NCBI GenBank assembly: GCA_938082375.1
Contig: CALKCJ010000027.1
Span: forward strand, 1 to 50,879
Origin: an uncultured Thermomicrobiaceae bacterium
GTDB lineage: Bacteria; Chloroflexota; Chloroflexia; Thermomicrobiales; Thermomicrobiaceae
Direction of reading: 5' to 3'
Length of the DNA stretch: 50,879 bases
Positions within the stretch are counted from its first letter, which is position 1. Every line of letters starts with the position of its first letter. Under the pieces are notes generated by a model, which did not search any database, was not told the DNA's origin, and saw only the letters and a program-made list of their open reading frames with translations. The translations under genes were made by a program, and so were the position numbers. Below, piece by piece: positions 5,041 to 50,879 of the stretch.

Positions 5041-6249
5041 CTAGCGGAGGAGCTGCAGCACCGACTGCGGGATAGCGTTGGCCTGGGCCAGCACAGCGAT
5101 GCCCGCCTGCTGCAGGATCTGGCCACGGGTGAAGCTGACCATCTCTGCAGCCATGTCCACGTCGCGGATGCGGCTCTCCGAGGCCAGCAGGTTCTCGTGC
5201 GCCACGCCCAGGTTGGCGATCGCGTGCTCGAGCCGGTTTTGCACCGCGCCGAGTCCCGAGCGAACCTCGTTGACGTATCCGATCGCCGTATCGACCACCC
5301 CGATCAAATTCTGTGCAGCGAGCACCTGATCTGCGTTAGTCTGGCTGAGAGAGTTTTGGAAGAACCCAATGAACACTCCCACATTTGTCATTCTGGGCTC
5401 GGTACCGCCGTTGATGCGGGTATCCTGGAACTGCACGTTGAAGAAATCGGTGGCGTTCGGGCCGACCTGCATGTTCGCGCTACCACCACCCGAGGCTGTG
5501 GTAATCGATCGAGTATCGAAGGAGTTACCGATCGCGTCAGCGTTAGAGAACCCACCAGTGGTGGTCAGGGTGAGACGGACACCAAGACCGGCAAAGTTCA
5601 GTTGCAGGCTCTGTCCGGCTGCCAGCCCACCGGATAGTGTCAGGGTCTGCGAGACGTTATCGCTACCCCGAGTGAGCGTCAGCGCTGCTGTGCTCGAATT
5701 GTAGGAGAACGTGTACGTCTCGCCCGGCCGCGCCGCTGCGACGTTCAGCGCGGTGATGTGACCGGAATCGGTGCCATCGGTCACAACCGTGCCAACATTC
5801 AGGTTGCTCGCGGCCGCGACGGTGGTCACGAGCGAGCCGTTCAGAAGCTGCTTGCCGTTGAACGTGGTACGCCCGACGATCGCGTCGACCTCAGTTTGCA
5901 GGCTCTGGAGTTCCCGGTTGATCGCTGCGCGGTCCTCGGTGGACAGCGTGTCGTTGGCCGCCTGCACCGCCAGCTCGCGCATGCGCTGGAGCATCGAGTG
6001 CACTTCGTTCAGCGCGCCCTCAGCCGTCTGGATCATCGAGATGCCGTCCTGCGCGTTGCGCTGGGCTTGGGCGATGCCCTTGACCTGCGCCCGCAGCTTC
6101 TCGCTGATCGAGAGCCCGGCCGCATCGTCGGCCGCGCGGTTGATGCGCAGACCGCTCGAGAGCTTCTCAATCGACTTGGCCAGCGCGAACCCGGTGATGC
6201 TCAGGTTCCGCTGGGCGTTGACCGCGTTGACGTTGTTGTAGATCCGCAT
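5041..6249 (-). CDS. fliC: Flagellin
   Basis: Flagellar filament subunit of 402 aa, exported by the flagellar type III system. The conserved N-terminal D0/D1 region starts at MRIYNNVNAVNAQRNL and includes LSSGLRINRAADDAAGLSIS. The C-terminal D1/D0 region includes NRLEHAIANL, ASESRIRDVDMA and a final QANAIPQSVLQLL. The middle (about 140-300) is a Thr/Ser/Gly-rich variable domain as expected for the exposed face. The ATG at 6249 is preferred over an upstream in-frame codon: it gives the family N-terminus and has GAGGAGG at good spacing. A near-perfect sigma-28 promoter lies about 140 bases upstream. The rest of the flagellar genes are not in the window. Confidence 0.97.
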   Translation of the reverse strand: MRIYNNVNAVNAQRNLSITGFALAKSIEKLSSGLRINRAADDAAGLSISEKLRAQVKGIAQAQRNAQDGISMIQTAEGALNEVHSMLQRMRELAVQAANDTLSTEDRAAINRELQSLQTEVDAIVGRTTFNGKQLLNGSLVTTVAAASNLNVGTVVTDGTDSGHITALNVAAARPGETYTFSYNSSTAALTLTRGSDNVSQTLTLSGGLAAGQSLQLNFAGLGVRLTLTTTGGFSNADAIGNSFDTRSITTASGGGSANMQVGPNATDFFNVQFQDTRINGGTEPRMTNVGVFIGFFQNSLSQTNADQVLAAQNLIGVVDTAIGYVNEVRSGLGAVQNRLEHAIANLGVAHENLLASESRIRDVDMAAEMVSFTRGQILQQAGIAVLAQANAIPQSVLQLLR

Positions 6250-6391
6250 CGCTGGCCTCCTCTGCCTATCCTTCGCCGGCACGTCCCTGCACCGGCTTTA
6301 TCTCCAGATGAGCCTCGCGACCGTGCGGCGTCGCCCCCGGTTGACCATAGCTACCGCCGACCTGGCGGTCGTTCCTCCCTTCTGCAAGGGT

Positions 6392-6418
6392 GTATCGGCA
6401 AGGCGGCCGGAAACTTTA
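6392..6418 (-). promoter_or_regulatory. Sigma-28 (FliA) promoter of flagellin
   Basis: Read on the minus strand, TAAAGTTT (6418-6411), exactly 11 bases, then GCCGATAC (6399-6392). The known sigma-28 consensus is TAAAGTTT, N11, GCCGATAA, so 15 of 16 fixed positions match. It faces the flagellin gene and predicts a leader of about 135 bases. Confidence 0.9.
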
Positions 6419-6729
6419 CCCCCCAGCGACCGGCGGCCCCGCCCTCGGCATTCTGCGGCACCTCCTCCACCGCGATGCGCGGGAGAGAGGAGAAGCGGCG
6501 GTGAGAGCACCGGCGCGTCGGACGAAGGCGCCGACAAGTGTGCGCGCGGCGGACCGGCGAGCGCTGCGCAGCGGGGCACTCGATAAGAGCGAGCCGGCTC
6601 TCCCGGCTAAGAGCCGCAGCAACCGCAGGGTGCGTACGGTAAGGGTGGAGCAGAGAGAACCCTCGTGTCGCCCGGTTGTCCGGCCTGCCGATCGCCCAGC
6701 ACGAAGACAAGCGCCGGGCTACAGGCGGC
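6419..6729. other. Intergenic stretch without a credible gene
   Basis: These 311 bases lie between the flagellin promoter and the end of the lipoprotein gene. Open frames on both strands are Arg/Pro-rich, lack family features and read as GC-rich noise. I see no RNA gene or convincing terminator. Confidence 0.6.
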
Positions 6730-46053: not shown

Positions 46054-47265
46054 ATGCCAGAAGACGAGCTTGCCTCGGCTACAGCACGAGGGCGGCGCCG
46101 AGCTCCAGTCGAGGATCGGCGCACTCGGGAGCTGCGCATCCTCTACGCGGTCTCCGAGGCACTCAACAGCGCAGCGGACGTCCGGCTCGCGCTCGAGCGG
46201 ACACTGGCGCTGGTCACTGACCTGCTTGGCCTGCCCACCGGGTGGGTCTGGCTGCTCGACCCCGAAAGCGGCCAGTTCTATAACGCTGCCGCCCATAACC
46301 TTCCGCCCTATCTCCAGGAGCCGGTCCGCATGACCGGCAAGAGCTGCTGGTGCATCGGCGACTTCCGTGACGGCACGCTCGCACCCAGAAACATCTCGCT
46401 GATCGAGTGCAGCCGGCTGCAGCCGGCCGTCGAAGCCGGAGCCATCGAGGCGACGGGTGGGCTGCGCTACCATGCCAGCATCCCGCTCTATTTCCGGGAC
46501 AAGCCCCTCGGGATCATGAACATCGCTGCGCCGTCCTGGCGCGAGCTCTCCCGGAGCGAGTTGCGGCTCCTCTCGACAATCGCCAATCAAATCGGGATCG
46601 CGATCGAGCGAGCGCGGCTGGCCGAGGAGAGCGCCCGGCTGGCCCGCGCCGAGGAGCGGGCCAGAATCGCTCGCGAAATCCACGACACGCTGGTGCAGGG
46701 GCTGACCGCCATCGGGCTGCACATCGAGAGCGCGCTGAACCACCTGGAGAGCGAGCCGGAGCGCGCCCGCGAGCGGATCGAGCGGGCGCTCGCGATGACC
46801 CGGGAGAGCCTGGAGGAAGCTCGGCGATCGGTGACCAACCTGCGCACCGGGCTGCCGTCCGGCAAGCCGCTTGCCGAAGCGCTGGGGATGCTGGCCCGCG
46901 CGTTCACCGCCGAGACCGGTGTGCGCATCGCGCTGCAGGTCAGCGGAGGACGGTCGCTTCCGCTGCGTGTGGAGAACGAACTCTACCGGATCGCCCAAGA
47001 GGCGCTGGCCAACGTGCGGCGGCACGCAGAGGCGAGCGAGGTACGCATTGCGCTGCGCGTTGGAACTGGGCAGCAGGTCGTGCTCTCGGTTCATGACAAT
47101 GGCCGCGGCTTCGACCCCGCCGCGATTCCGGTCGGCTGTCACGGGCTCCTGGGCATGCGGGAGCGCGCCCGGCTGCTGGGCGGCCGGCTGCACGTTGCCA
47201 GCCGGCCGAGCCGGGGCACGACGCTCACCGCCATCGTGCCGCTGCTCGCGGAGGGCGAGCCGTGA
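46054..47265 (+). CDS. GAF-domain sensor histidine kinase (NarL/DegS type)
   Basis: A soluble sensor kinase of 403 aa without membrane segments. The GAF domain (about 30-190) carries three cysteines: Cys98 and Cys100 in KSCWCIGDF and Cys119 in IECSRL. Such Cys could bind an Fe-S cluster or heme-like ligand or react with redox signals or NO; this is inference. A short coiled coil leads to the HisKA_3 domain with the phospho-acceptor His210 (AREIHDTLVQG). The ATPase domain has ELYRIAQEALANVRRHAEA, DNGRGF and GLLGMRERA. Its stop overlaps the regulator start (GTGA), so the two form a pair. Next to oxidase genes, an oxygen, redox or NO signal is likely. Confidence 0.92.
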   Translation: MPEDELASATARGRRRAPVEDRRTRELRILYAVSEALNSAADVRLALERTLALVTDLLGLPTGWVWLLDPESGQFYNAAAHNLPPYLQEPVRMTGKSCWCIGDFRDGTLAPRNISLIECSRLQPAVEAGAIEATGGLRYHASIPLYFRDKPLGIMNIAAPSWRELSRSELRLLSTIANQIGIAIERARLAEESARLARAEERARIAREIHDTLVQGLTAIGLHIESALNHLESEPERARERIERALAMTRESLEEARRSVTNLRTGLPSGKPLAEALGMLARAFTAETGVRIALQVSGGRSLPLRVENELYRIAQEALANVRRHAEASEVRIALRVGTGQQVVLSVHDNGRGFDPAAIPVGCHGLLGMRERARLLGGRLHVASRPSRGTTLTAIVPLLAEGEP

Positions 47266-47888
47266 TCCGCGTGCTCGTGGTCGACGACCACCCCGTCGTC
47301 CGGGAGGGGTTGATCAGCGTGCTGGAGCTCCAGCCAGATCTCCAGGTCATCGGAGCGGCGGGCTCGGCCGAGGAGGCGCTCTCGCTGGTCCGGCGCCTGC
47401 GACCGGACGTGGTGCTGCTCGATCTGGAGCTGCCGGGCATGGGCGGGATCGCGGCCATCCCCTATCTGCTGGCCGGCTCCGCGCCGCCGCGCGTGCTCGT
47501 CTTCACCGCCTACGACACCGACGACCGCGTGCACGGCGCGCTCGAGGCCGGAGCTGCCGGCTATCTGCTCAAAGGCGCTAGCGGCGAGGAGATCGCCCGC
47601 AGCGTGCGGGCGGTCTATGAGGGTCGGTTAGCGCTGGAACCTCGGATCGTCGCCCGCACGCTGCCGCAGCTCCGCAGCTCGACGCGCCGTCGCGGCCTGC
47701 TGACCCCACGCGAGCGCGAGGTGCTCGAACTCGTGGCGCACGCACTGGCCAACAAGGAGATCGCCGGGCAACTCGGGATCTCCGAGCGGACGGTGAAGTT
47801 CCACATCGCCTCGATCATGGGCAAGCTGGGGGCCGAGAACCGTGCGCAGGCGACGGCGCTCGCGCTGCAGGGCGGCCTGCTGCGGTGA
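47262..47888 (+). CDS. LuxR/NarL-family response regulator
   Basis: A 208-aa DNA-binding regulator, the partner of the upstream GAF kinase (GTG start overlaps its TGA by three bases). The receiver has VLVVDDHP, the phospho-acceptor Asp54 (VLLDLELPGMGG), the Thr in VFTAYD and Lys in LLKGA. The C-terminal LuxR-type helix-turn-helix reads LTPREREVLELVA, NKEIAGQLGISERTVKFH and GAENRAQATA. All signature residues are intact. It lies about 60 bases before ctaG. The operon downstream of the hairpin at 48840 is a natural target; this is inferred from position. Confidence 0.94.
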   Translation: MIRVLVVDDHPVVREGLISVLELQPDLQVIGAAGSAEEALSLVRRLRPDVVLLDLELPGMGGIAAIPYLLAGSAPPRVLVFTAYDTDDRVHGALEAGAAGYLLKGASGEEIARSVRAVYEGRLALEPRIVARTLPQLRSSTRRRGLLTPREREVLELVAHALANKEIAGQLGISERTVKFHIASIMGKLGAENRAQATALALQGGLLR

Positions 47889-47947
47889 CCTGGCACAACT
47901 GACGCGTGCCAGGAGACTGCCGACAGAAGAAAGAAGGGAAACGAGCC

Positions 47948-48838
47948 ATGCTCCTTCCGCCGCTCCACGCCACCGCAAATGCCGATTCCTGGCTGCGAGC
48001 CTGGCACTTCGACCCCATCCTGGCGCCGCTGCTGACCGCTGCAGGAGTCGGATACCTGATCGCGTACCAGACCGTCCAGCGCTCTGGCCGGCGCCCACCG
48101 CCGTTCTGGCGCGCTACCGCCTACTTCGCAGGACTGGCAGCGCTGGCCATCGCGCTCCTCGGTCCGCCAGACCACTTCAATGGGATCCTTTTTTCAGTGC
48201 ACATGGTTCAGCACCTGCTGCTGATGCTGGTCGCCGCCCCACTGCTCGTCCTCGGGCGTCCGGCCGCGCTCGCGCTGTGGGCATTGCCGTCGCGCCCGAG
48301 GCAGCGGATCTGGCGAGCCCTTTTGGGACACCGGCCGGTGCGCTCGTCGCTCACACTGCTCACACACCCCTTCATGGTCTTCCTCCTCTACAACGGCAGC
48401 TTTGTCGCTTGGCACCTCCCTGCGCTCTATCAGGCTGCGGTGGTCGATCGCCTTGTGCATGAGGTGGAGCACGCGTCGTTCTTCGGCACCGCACTACTGT
48501 TCTGGCAGGTGCTCCTCGATCCCCGGCCCTGGCGACGCCGCCTCTCGACCGAAGCGGTCGTGCTACTCCTGTTTGCCACCTGGATGGTCTCGGATCTGCT
48601 CTGCGCGACGGTCACGCTCTCGAGCGAGCTGCTCTATCCGGTCTATGCATCGCACTCCAAGCCCTGGGGGTTGAGCCCGCTGGGCGACCAGCGACTGGGT
48701 GGCGCGATCATGTGGATTGCCGGGGGTGTCCTGTACGTAGCGCTCCTCCTCGGGTATCTGGCATATCCGGCTGTACGGCGCGGCAGCCCGTCGCCACGGC
48801 ATGCTCGATACCCCTTGACGGGACGGCGCACCCTGTAG
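47948..48838 (+). CDS. ctaG: CtaG-type (caa3) oxidase assembly membrane protein
   Basis: A polytopic membrane protein of 296 aa (about seven helices) of the caa3_CtaG family, which helps mature caa3/ba3-type oxidases, probably by bringing copper to CuB. Family features include the His-rich helix FSVHMVQHLLLML, the TM segment ending FVAWHLPALYQAA, HEVEHASFFGTALLFW, and the C-terminal helices. It is not the Cox11-type CtaG of proteobacteria. The ATG at 47948 follows AAGGGAAA; an upstream in-frame codon at 47906 has no such site. It lies between the two-component pair and the oxidase structural genes, with a hairpin directly after its stop. Confidence 0.9.
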   Translation: MLLPPLHATANADSWLRAWHFDPILAPLLTAAGVGYLIAYQTVQRSGRRPPPFWRATAYFAGLAALAIALLGPPDHFNGILFSVHMVQHLLLMLVAAPLLVLGRPAALALWALPSRPRQRIWRALLGHRPVRSSLTLLTHPFMVFLLYNGSFVAWHLPALYQAAVVDRLVHEVEHASFFGTALLFWQVLLDPRPWRRRLSTEAVVLLLFATWMVSDLLCATVTLSSELLYPVYASHSKPWGLSPLGDQRLGGAIMWIAGGVLYVALLLGYLAYPAVRRGSPSPRHARYPLTGRRTL

Positions 48839-49253: not shown

Positions 49254-49805
49254 ATGGCCGTTCGGTTCAGCAGCCTGGCCAAGCCGCAGGGGACGTGGTG
49301 GCAACCCCTCGGACGCGACGAGCGACTCTGGGGTGCGCTCGCGGTGATCTGGGGGCTGGCGATGTTCGCGATGATCGCGGTCATCTGGCCAGCCATCGGG
49401 CGAGAACAGAACCGTATCCAGAGCTACCGCATCGAGCCGAGTGAGTTCGCCGCCCGCACCGACGAATTTATCCAGACCTATCAAATTGGCGAGGTGGATG
49501 GTGTCCCACTGGTCGCGCCGCCGCCAGGGGGCGATGTCTACCTCGAGGCGCGGGCCTTCGCCTGGCGACCGGTGATCCAGCTCAAGCGCGGCGAGACCTA
49601 TCGCTTCCTTATCTCCTCGCGCGACGTGCAGCACGGCTTCTCGCTGGTCATGGCGCCGCATACGATCAACTTCCAGATCTTGCCTGGCTTCGTGACAGTA
49701 ATCCAGCTCACACCTGAGGACGCTGGCGAGTATCCGATCGTCTGCAACGAGTACTGCGGCCTGGGCCATCACCTGATGCTTGGCCGCATCGTGGTGACCG
49801 ACTAG
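49254..49805 (+). CDS. CuA subunit II of a ba3-type heme-copper enzyme
   Basis: A 183-aa membrane-anchored cupredoxin that takes electrons from a cytochrome c or similar donor into subunit I. One helix (about 28-47) is followed by the periplasmic beta-barrel. The binuclear CuA ligands are complete: His127 (DVQHGF), Cys164, Glu166, Cys168, His172 and Met175 in the C-x-E-x-C-x3-H-x2-M motif. A single anchor helix is the B-family (ba3) arrangement, against two in A-family oxidases. GGAGG precedes the ATG at 49254. It is 25 bases before the subunit I start. An intact CuA site shows that the enzyme accepts electrons one at a time from a soluble donor. Confidence 0.95.
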   Translation: MAVRFSSLAKPQGTWWQPLGRDERLWGALAVIWGLAMFAMIAVIWPAIGREQNRIQSYRIEPSEFAARTDEFIQTYQIGEVDGVPLVAPPPGGDVYLEARAFAWRPVIQLKRGETYRFLISSRDVQHGFSLVMAPHTINFQILPGFVTVIQLTPEDAGEYPIVCNEYCGLGHHLMLGRIVVTD

Positions 49806-49830: not shown

Positions 49831-50879
49831 ATGCAAGCCGTAGCAGCCGTACAGCGACGCTGCCAGGTGACGGGGCTCCTGGTCGACCGCTCGGCCGAGC
49901 GCCAGATCATGGCCTTCGCGGTCACGGCGGTCATTTACCTGGCGATCGGGGGAGTGCTGGCCCTGCTGATCGCGCTGACCCGGTGGCAAGCCGTCCACCT
50001 TCTGCCGTACGAGAGCTTCTACGCCTTCGTTTCGACGCACGGCATGGTGATGCTGATCTTCTGGATCATCTTCTTCGAGATAGCCGGCCTGATCTTCGGC
50101 AGTACGGTGCTGCTCAGTGCGCGGATGGTCGTGCCTGTGCTGGGCTGGATCGCCTATGGGTTGATGCTGGCTGGGTCAGTGGTCGCCACGTACCTTATGA
50201 TCACCGGCCAAGCGGTTGTCATGTTCACGTCGTACCCACCGCTCAAGGCGCCCCCGCTCTACTACGCCTCGGTGCTGGTCTTCGCCGTCGGCGCGATCCT
50301 CGGCATCGTGCACTTCGTGATGAACCTCGTGGGGGCGCGGTTGCGTGGCGACGTCGGCTCGCTCCCGCTGTTCACCTTTGCCCTGCTCGGCGCGGCGATC
50401 ATCGCGCTCTGGAGCCTCGTGTCCGGCGCGGCCGCGCTGCTCCCGGTGCTGCTGTGGTCACTCGGGGCCATCCCGTCCGTCGATCCCGGCGTGTATCGCC
50501 TGCTCTACTGGGGCCTGGGCCACGGCGCCCAGCAGATCAACCTGGCGGCGATGGTGGCGGTCTGGTACGGCCTCGCCAGCCTGACCACCGGCGCCAAGGT
50601 GCTCAACGAGGGGTTCAGTCGAATCGCAATCGTCCTCTATGTCCTGTTCATCAACATGGGGGCGATGCACCACTTGCTGGTCGATCCGGGCCTGGGCACC
50701 TGGGTGCGCAACATGAACGCCAGCTACTTCATGTACGGCGCGGTCATCGGGAGTTTGATCCACGCCTTCAGTATCCCGGCCTCGGTGGAGCTGGCGATGC
50801 GGGAGAAAGGCTTCCGCCGGGGGCTGTTCACCTGGCTGCGCCGGGCGCCATGGGGGGAGCCGGGGTTCGCAGCCCTGGT
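49831..50879 (+). CDS. Heme-copper subunit I, B-family like, active-site Tyr replaced by Gln (partial)
   Basis: The first 349 codons; the gene runs off the right edge. By eye it aligns with Thermus ba3 subunit I: STHGMVML (His70, low-spin heme ligand), SYPPLKAPP, then the CuB region. His231 (GLGHGAQQ) and the pair His280-His281 (GAMHHLLVDPG) match CuB ligands 233, 282 and 283 of ba3. The Tyr of the cross-linked His-Tyr pair (H-x3-Y) is Gln235. Lack of this Tyr is a mark of nitric-oxide-reductase-type members of the superfamily rather than oxygen reductases. GAAGGGAG lies upstream of the ATG. The heme ligands of helix X lie beyond the edge. Either NO reductase or an oxidase with the Tyr placed elsewhere is possible. 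Confidence 0.93.
   Translation, partial: MQAVAAVQRRCQVTGLLVDRSAERQIMAFAVTAVIYLAIGGVLALLIALTRWQAVHLLPYESFYAFVSTHGMVMLIFWIIFFEIAGLIFGSTVLLSARMVVPVLGWIAYGLMLAGSVVATYLMITGQAVVMFTSYPPLKAPPLYYASVLVFAVGAILGIVHFVMNLVGARLRGDVGSLPLFTFALLGAAIIALWSLVSGAAALLPVLLWSLGAIPSVDPGVYRLLYWGLGHGAQQINLAAMVAVWYGLASLTTGAKVLNEGFSRIAIVLYVLFINMGAMHHLLVDPGLGTWVRNMNASYFMYGAVIGSLIHAFSIPASVELAMREKGFRRGLFTWLRRAPWGEPGFAAL

Follow-up and report, generated by a model that had tools for sequence, protein, structure and literature searches.

The window, meaning the whole analysed stretch of 50,879 nucleotides, is one entire contig (G000:C27:1-50879) of a 3.36 Mb, 61-contig Thermomicrobiaceae genome close to Thermalbibacter. Its 3' end carries a putative operon for an eNOR, an NO reductase that contains CuA and has its relatives among the B-family O2 reductases. 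The operon continues on a second contig (C18), and its genes follow the order ctaG, small subunit, CuA subunit II, subunit I and ctaA-ctaB (Table 1). Translation of 49831-50879 gives 349 open codons from an ATG to the contig end. When the nearest orthologue's C-terminal half was searched against the genome itself, the last 38 codons of subunit I were located at the extreme end of contig C18 (G000:C18:127553-127666, minus strand; 95% identical to that orthologue), and the gene is therefore broken only by an assembly gap. The remainder of the gene, which the preliminary description lacked, is thus recovered in part: these 38 codons lie on C18, and the portion encoding the C-terminal heme ligands (AHFH motif) falls within the gap, being seen in orthologues only.

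Table 1. Features of the putative eNOR operon within the window.
Feature	Position	Strand	Evidence
Copper-centre assembly factor of CtaG type (Caa3_CtaG, PF09678), immediately upstream	47906..48838	+	Pfam, 217 bits
Small protein (56 aa), single predicted transmembrane helix	49049..49219	+	Counterparts precede subunit II in eNOR-like lineages
Subunit II: one N-terminal helix and CuA cupredoxin domain	49254..49805	+	PDB ba3 CuA-domain matches, E 4e-17
Invariant Glu at start of subunit II helix	49320..49322	+	Present throughout the eNOR-like subunit II alignment
CuA ligand His	49632..49634	+	Subunit II alignment; ba3 CuA-domain matches
CuA ligand loop C-N-E-Y-C-G-L-G-H-H-L-M (Cys, Cys, His, Met)	49743..49778	+	
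Subunit I, catalytic, putative eNOR type, residues 1-349 of about 578	49831..50879	+	PF00115, 122 bits
His70, low-spin heme ligand (ba3 His72)	50038..50040	+	Alignment
Glu83, helix II; 39/39 in Gln clade, absent from B-family oxygen reductases	50077..50079	+	Alignment
His231, CuB ligand (ba3 His233)	50521..50523	+	Alignment
Gln234-Gln235; Gln235 (50533-50535) replaces cross-linked Tyr237	50530..50535	+	Alignment
Asn237, in place of invariant Trp of B-family oxygen reductases	50539..50541	+	Alignment
Tyr246 (ba3 Tyr248, K-pathway), kept in both groups	50566..50568	+	Alignment
His280-His281, CuB ligands (ba3 His282-His283)	50668..50673	+	Alignment
His311, replaces ba3 K-pathway Thr312; 39/39 Gln-clade proteins	50761..50763	+	Alignment

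Operon organization and accessory subunits

The CuA ligands of subunit II (His; Cys, Cys, His, Met) are invariant across eNOR-like operons and, together with the matches to ba3 CuA domains, bear out the earlier view that the CuA subunit is intact. From its position, the invariant glutamate of subunit II (Table 1) is likely the counterpart of the proton-entry residue Glu15(II) of ba3. A homologue of the 56-aa protein precedes subunit II in each of the eNOR-like lineages compared, with the weakest similarity in Thermus, and that of T. roseum is annotated as a 51-aa hypothetical protein; a PDB sequence search with the 56-aa protein returned no match. The protein is probably the small third subunit of eNOR, resembling subunit IIa of ba3. 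This conserved one-helix subunit is newly noted here; the published passages on eNOR that were consulted make no mention of it.

On contig C18, the next gene after the subunit I stop codon encodes a CtaA-CtaB (heme A/O synthase) fusion of 602 aa. The same fusion lies downstream in Thermalbibacter longus, and in T. roseum a 600-codon gene annotated as heme o synthase is located downstream of subunit I. The CtaA-fused heme O synthase (G000:C18:125607-126440) is the only one in the genome, and must therefore serve the oxygen reductases too. Directly upstream of ctaG (46054-47888), a GAF-domain histidine kinase and a response regulator are encoded, and a kinase of like make-up occurs upstream in Thermalbibacter longus; it is possible that this pair regulates the operon. 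At Thermomicrobium loci (L074:1221-2600; L006-L008, near 5200-6600), a 457-466-aa protein is encoded upstream of the eNOR operon. It has a CuA-like loop (CTELCGPSFREM) with the second His ligand lost, and is named a cytochrome c oxidase assembly protein in the T. roseum annotation.

The active site of subunit I

Subunit I aligns with the ba3 oxygen reductase of Thermus thermophilus (1EHK and others; phmmer, E 7e-27), an enzyme of the same fold family that is distant overall. The ligands claimed in the preliminary description (His70, His231 and His280-His281) are present and fall on ba3 ligand positions, and the H-G-A-Q-Q reading at 50521-50535 is exact. The phmmer alignment places GHGAQQ onto GHPIVY of ba3, and hence Gln235 onto Tyr237. 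In an active-site alignment of 39 Gln-type proteins (the window protein included, with relatives from Chloroflexota, Thermus and one alphaproteobacterium) and 26 Tyr-type B-family oxygen reductases, this column holds glutamine in 39/39 of the former and tyrosine in 26/26 of the latter. Gln235 is therefore neither a sequencing slip nor a chance change, and the claimed replacement of the catalytic tyrosine is confirmed. Because the gene is incomplete in the window, it might be taken for a decayed or mis-assembled oxidase gene in which the glutamine is an error or a neutral change; the 3' end at another contig end speaks against this, and full-length orthologues (about 580-626 open codons) with the same glutamine refute it, leaving such a reading with virtually no probability.

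Glu83, Gln234, Gln235, Asn237 and His311 are common to all 39 Gln-type proteins and occur in none of the Tyr-type set. Compared with ba3, the histidine ligands, the CuA domain and the residues equivalent to Tyr248 and Ser309 are shared, whereas Tyr237 and Val236 are each replaced by glutamine, Trp239 by asparagine and Thr312 by histidine, with Glu83 in addition. All 26 B-family oxygen reductases have threonine at the position of His311. A single K-type proton channel is predicted for eNOR; at the level of sequence, Tyr246, Ser308 and the subunit II glutamate are retained here and Thr312 is changed to histidine.

The retained CuA, CuB ligands and K-pathway-like residues, along with the CtaG and heme A/O synthase genes that oxidase operons also have, could suit a genuine oxygen reductase of the B family whose tyrosine was lost or moved elsewhere and which still reduces O2 to water. 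The tyrosine expected of such enzymes on helix VI, four residues after the first CuB histidine, is replaced by Gln235. In C-family (cbb3) enzymes the tyrosine belongs to helix VII and precedes the His-His pair by six residues; no tyrosine occurs there in the Gln-type proteins, residue 274 being isoleucine in 38 of the 39 and leucine in one. Tyr299, the sole clade-specific conserved tyrosine in the matched region, sits close to where helix VIII begins, twelve residues ahead of His311, and was judged too far from the active site. AlphaFold2 models of nine close orthologues (mean pLDDT 48.8) were too poor for use. The glutamine and four other fixed changes, the separate placement of these proteins on a long stem (see below) and the presence of three Tyr-bearing oxidases in the genome likewise argue against oxygen reduction, which is very unlikely.

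Relatives and family assignment

In a quick tree in which several branches are long, the Gln proteins group together in a single clade, separate from the B-family O2 reductases (SH-aLRT 99), and its support is 100 with the diagnostic columns of helices VI, VII and VIII removed. Clustering with oxygen reductases that carry a compensating tyrosine, named in the preliminary description as grounds for abandoning the NO reductase reading, was thus not found. Subunit I orthologues with 77-97% identity occur in Thermalbibacter, Thermomicrobium, Sphaerobacter and related MAGs, more distant relatives are spread across Chloroflexota (strong full-length-type matches in 28 of 400 sampled genomes) and others are carried on Thermus thermophilus plasmids and a Defluviimonas plasmid. 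The Thermus operon lies beside genes for an Rrf2 regulator, DUF542, cytochrome P460 (L075 only) and a multicopper oxidase, a plasmid region (L075/L077) that constitutes an NO-handling island, and the Defluviimonas gene beside those for hemerythrin, SCO and cytochrome b. The position of these relatives beside NO-linked genes supports the assignment to eNOR. On both Thermus plasmids, the eNOR-like operon is annotated as a cbb3/ba3 oxidase. Haloarchaeal, Deinococcus, Burkholderia, Methylobacterium and Geobacillus plasmid matches were considered as sNOR, bNOR or archaeal eNOR references and rejected, all those fetched having tyrosine.

NO reductases of this superfamily are distinguished by their active-site residue, which is given as Gln in eNOR, Asn in sNOR and CuANOR (bNOR), Asp in gNOR and Glu in cNOR and qNOR (PMC8756737, Table A4). 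Four NOR families are listed as biochemically characterised, and eNOR, a relative of the B-family O2 reductases, is one of them (PMC11388526); in Ardenticatena maritima (Chloroflexota), eNOR was reported in an operon with NirK (PMC4653789). By these published criteria, the glutamine at the position of the cross-linked tyrosine (39/39), the cupredoxin subunit II beside subunit I and monophyly apart from B-family O2 reductases (SH-aLRT 99-100) indicate that 49831-50879 is very probably the subunit I gene of eNOR, within the heme-copper superfamily. By published description, the eNORs of Ardenticatena maritima, SURF MAG 42 and Rhodothermus marinus agree with the window operon in the active-site glutamine, the CuA/cupredoxin subunit II directly upstream, the K-pathway-like residues, the denitrification context and the presence in Chloroflexota, and no difference was found. 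One member of the eNOR group is biochemically characterised; reportedly, in a 2024 PNAS paper on NOR diversity, it comes from Rhodothermus marinus.

The preliminary description had drawn a parallel to the bNOR (CuANOR) of Bacillus azotoformans, which is likewise a CuA-containing NO reductase related to B-family enzymes. The published CuANOR residue is Asn, not Gln (PMC8756737), and bNOR is reported only from Bacillota (PMC11388526). Since Gln is the published eNOR residue, the family is very probably eNOR rather than Bacillus CuANOR, and membership in the latter is extremely unlikely. The proposal of a CuA-type NO reductase in Chloroflexota thus appears sound in kind, in view of the Gln clade and intact CuA site, and its bNOR parallel is to be dropped. 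cNOR and qNOR (NorB) would share the same reaction, but they lack CuA and their active-site residue is Glu.

Denitrification context and proposed function

The genome encodes, on other contigs, NarG (1523 bits, cut-off 1084; 1215-aa frame), NirK (354 bits, cut-off 296) and NosZ (906 bits, cut-off 625), and no cNOR or qNOR was found in it. Its four heme-copper proteins comprise one A-family and two B-family oxidases with tyrosine, plus the Gln235 protein. Given NarG, NirK and NosZ and the absence of cNOR and qNOR, the Gln235 enzyme would supply the otherwise missing NO-to-N2O step. A search for flavodiiron NO reductase as another NO sink gave one weak match (302-aa frame), from a family that also matches most control genomes. 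In another Chloroflexota genome (G148), NirK (360 bits, cut-off 296) lies upstream of the gene and heme O synthase downstream, in favour of the eNOR reading and in line with the eNOR-NirK operon reported from Ardenticatena maritima. Against the eNOR reading, one related genus (g6, Thermomicrobium) includes three genomes in which the gene occurs without NirK over the cut-off, the association of the gene with NirK is not significant within the family alone (Fisher p = 0.12), and the adjacent heme A/O synthase is also needed by an oxidase. Over 61 relatives the association with NirK is strong (8e-9) but confounded by descent.

In the proposed mechanism, electrons would pass from a soluble donor to CuA of subunit II, then to the low-spin heme (with His70 as one ligand and the second in the missing half) and on to the high-spin heme-CuB centre, with CuB held by His231, His280 and His281. 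As it lacks a redox-active His-cross-linked tyrosine, this site would be without the four-electron O2 mechanism; two NO molecules would bind and couple to form N2O, consuming two electrons and two protons. The protons would be drawn from the cytoplasm, probably through a K-pathway-like route comprising the subunit II glutamate, Tyr246, Ser308, His311 and Gln235. Within the cell, the enzyme would connect NirK (nitrite to NO) to NosZ (N2O to N2). The high-spin site may be of the heme A type, and turnover may conserve energy. A fuller proposal, that Glu83, Gln234, Gln235, Asn237 and His311 together with the small subunit form an eNOR-specific proton relay and complex, that NO reduction conserves energy and that the adjacent synthase provides a heme A-type site, is tentative and rather doubtful as a whole.

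eNOR is a known but little-studied relative of the enzymes of oxygen respiration. As it is already known in Chloroflexota, the window gene is an ordinary further member; its unusual residues are genuine and of use in studying mechanism, but the group they mark out has already been described. The fixed residues of the Gln clade are direct targets for work on N2O formation at a heme-copper site that lacks the tyrosine, and on whether energy is conserved in the process. With NO as its presumed substrate, the gene would complete a nitrate-to-N2 gene set in a heat-loving bacterium. Such genes are annotated as cytochrome c oxidases by standard annotation, and N2O-producing steps in thermophilic Chloroflexota would consequently be missed.
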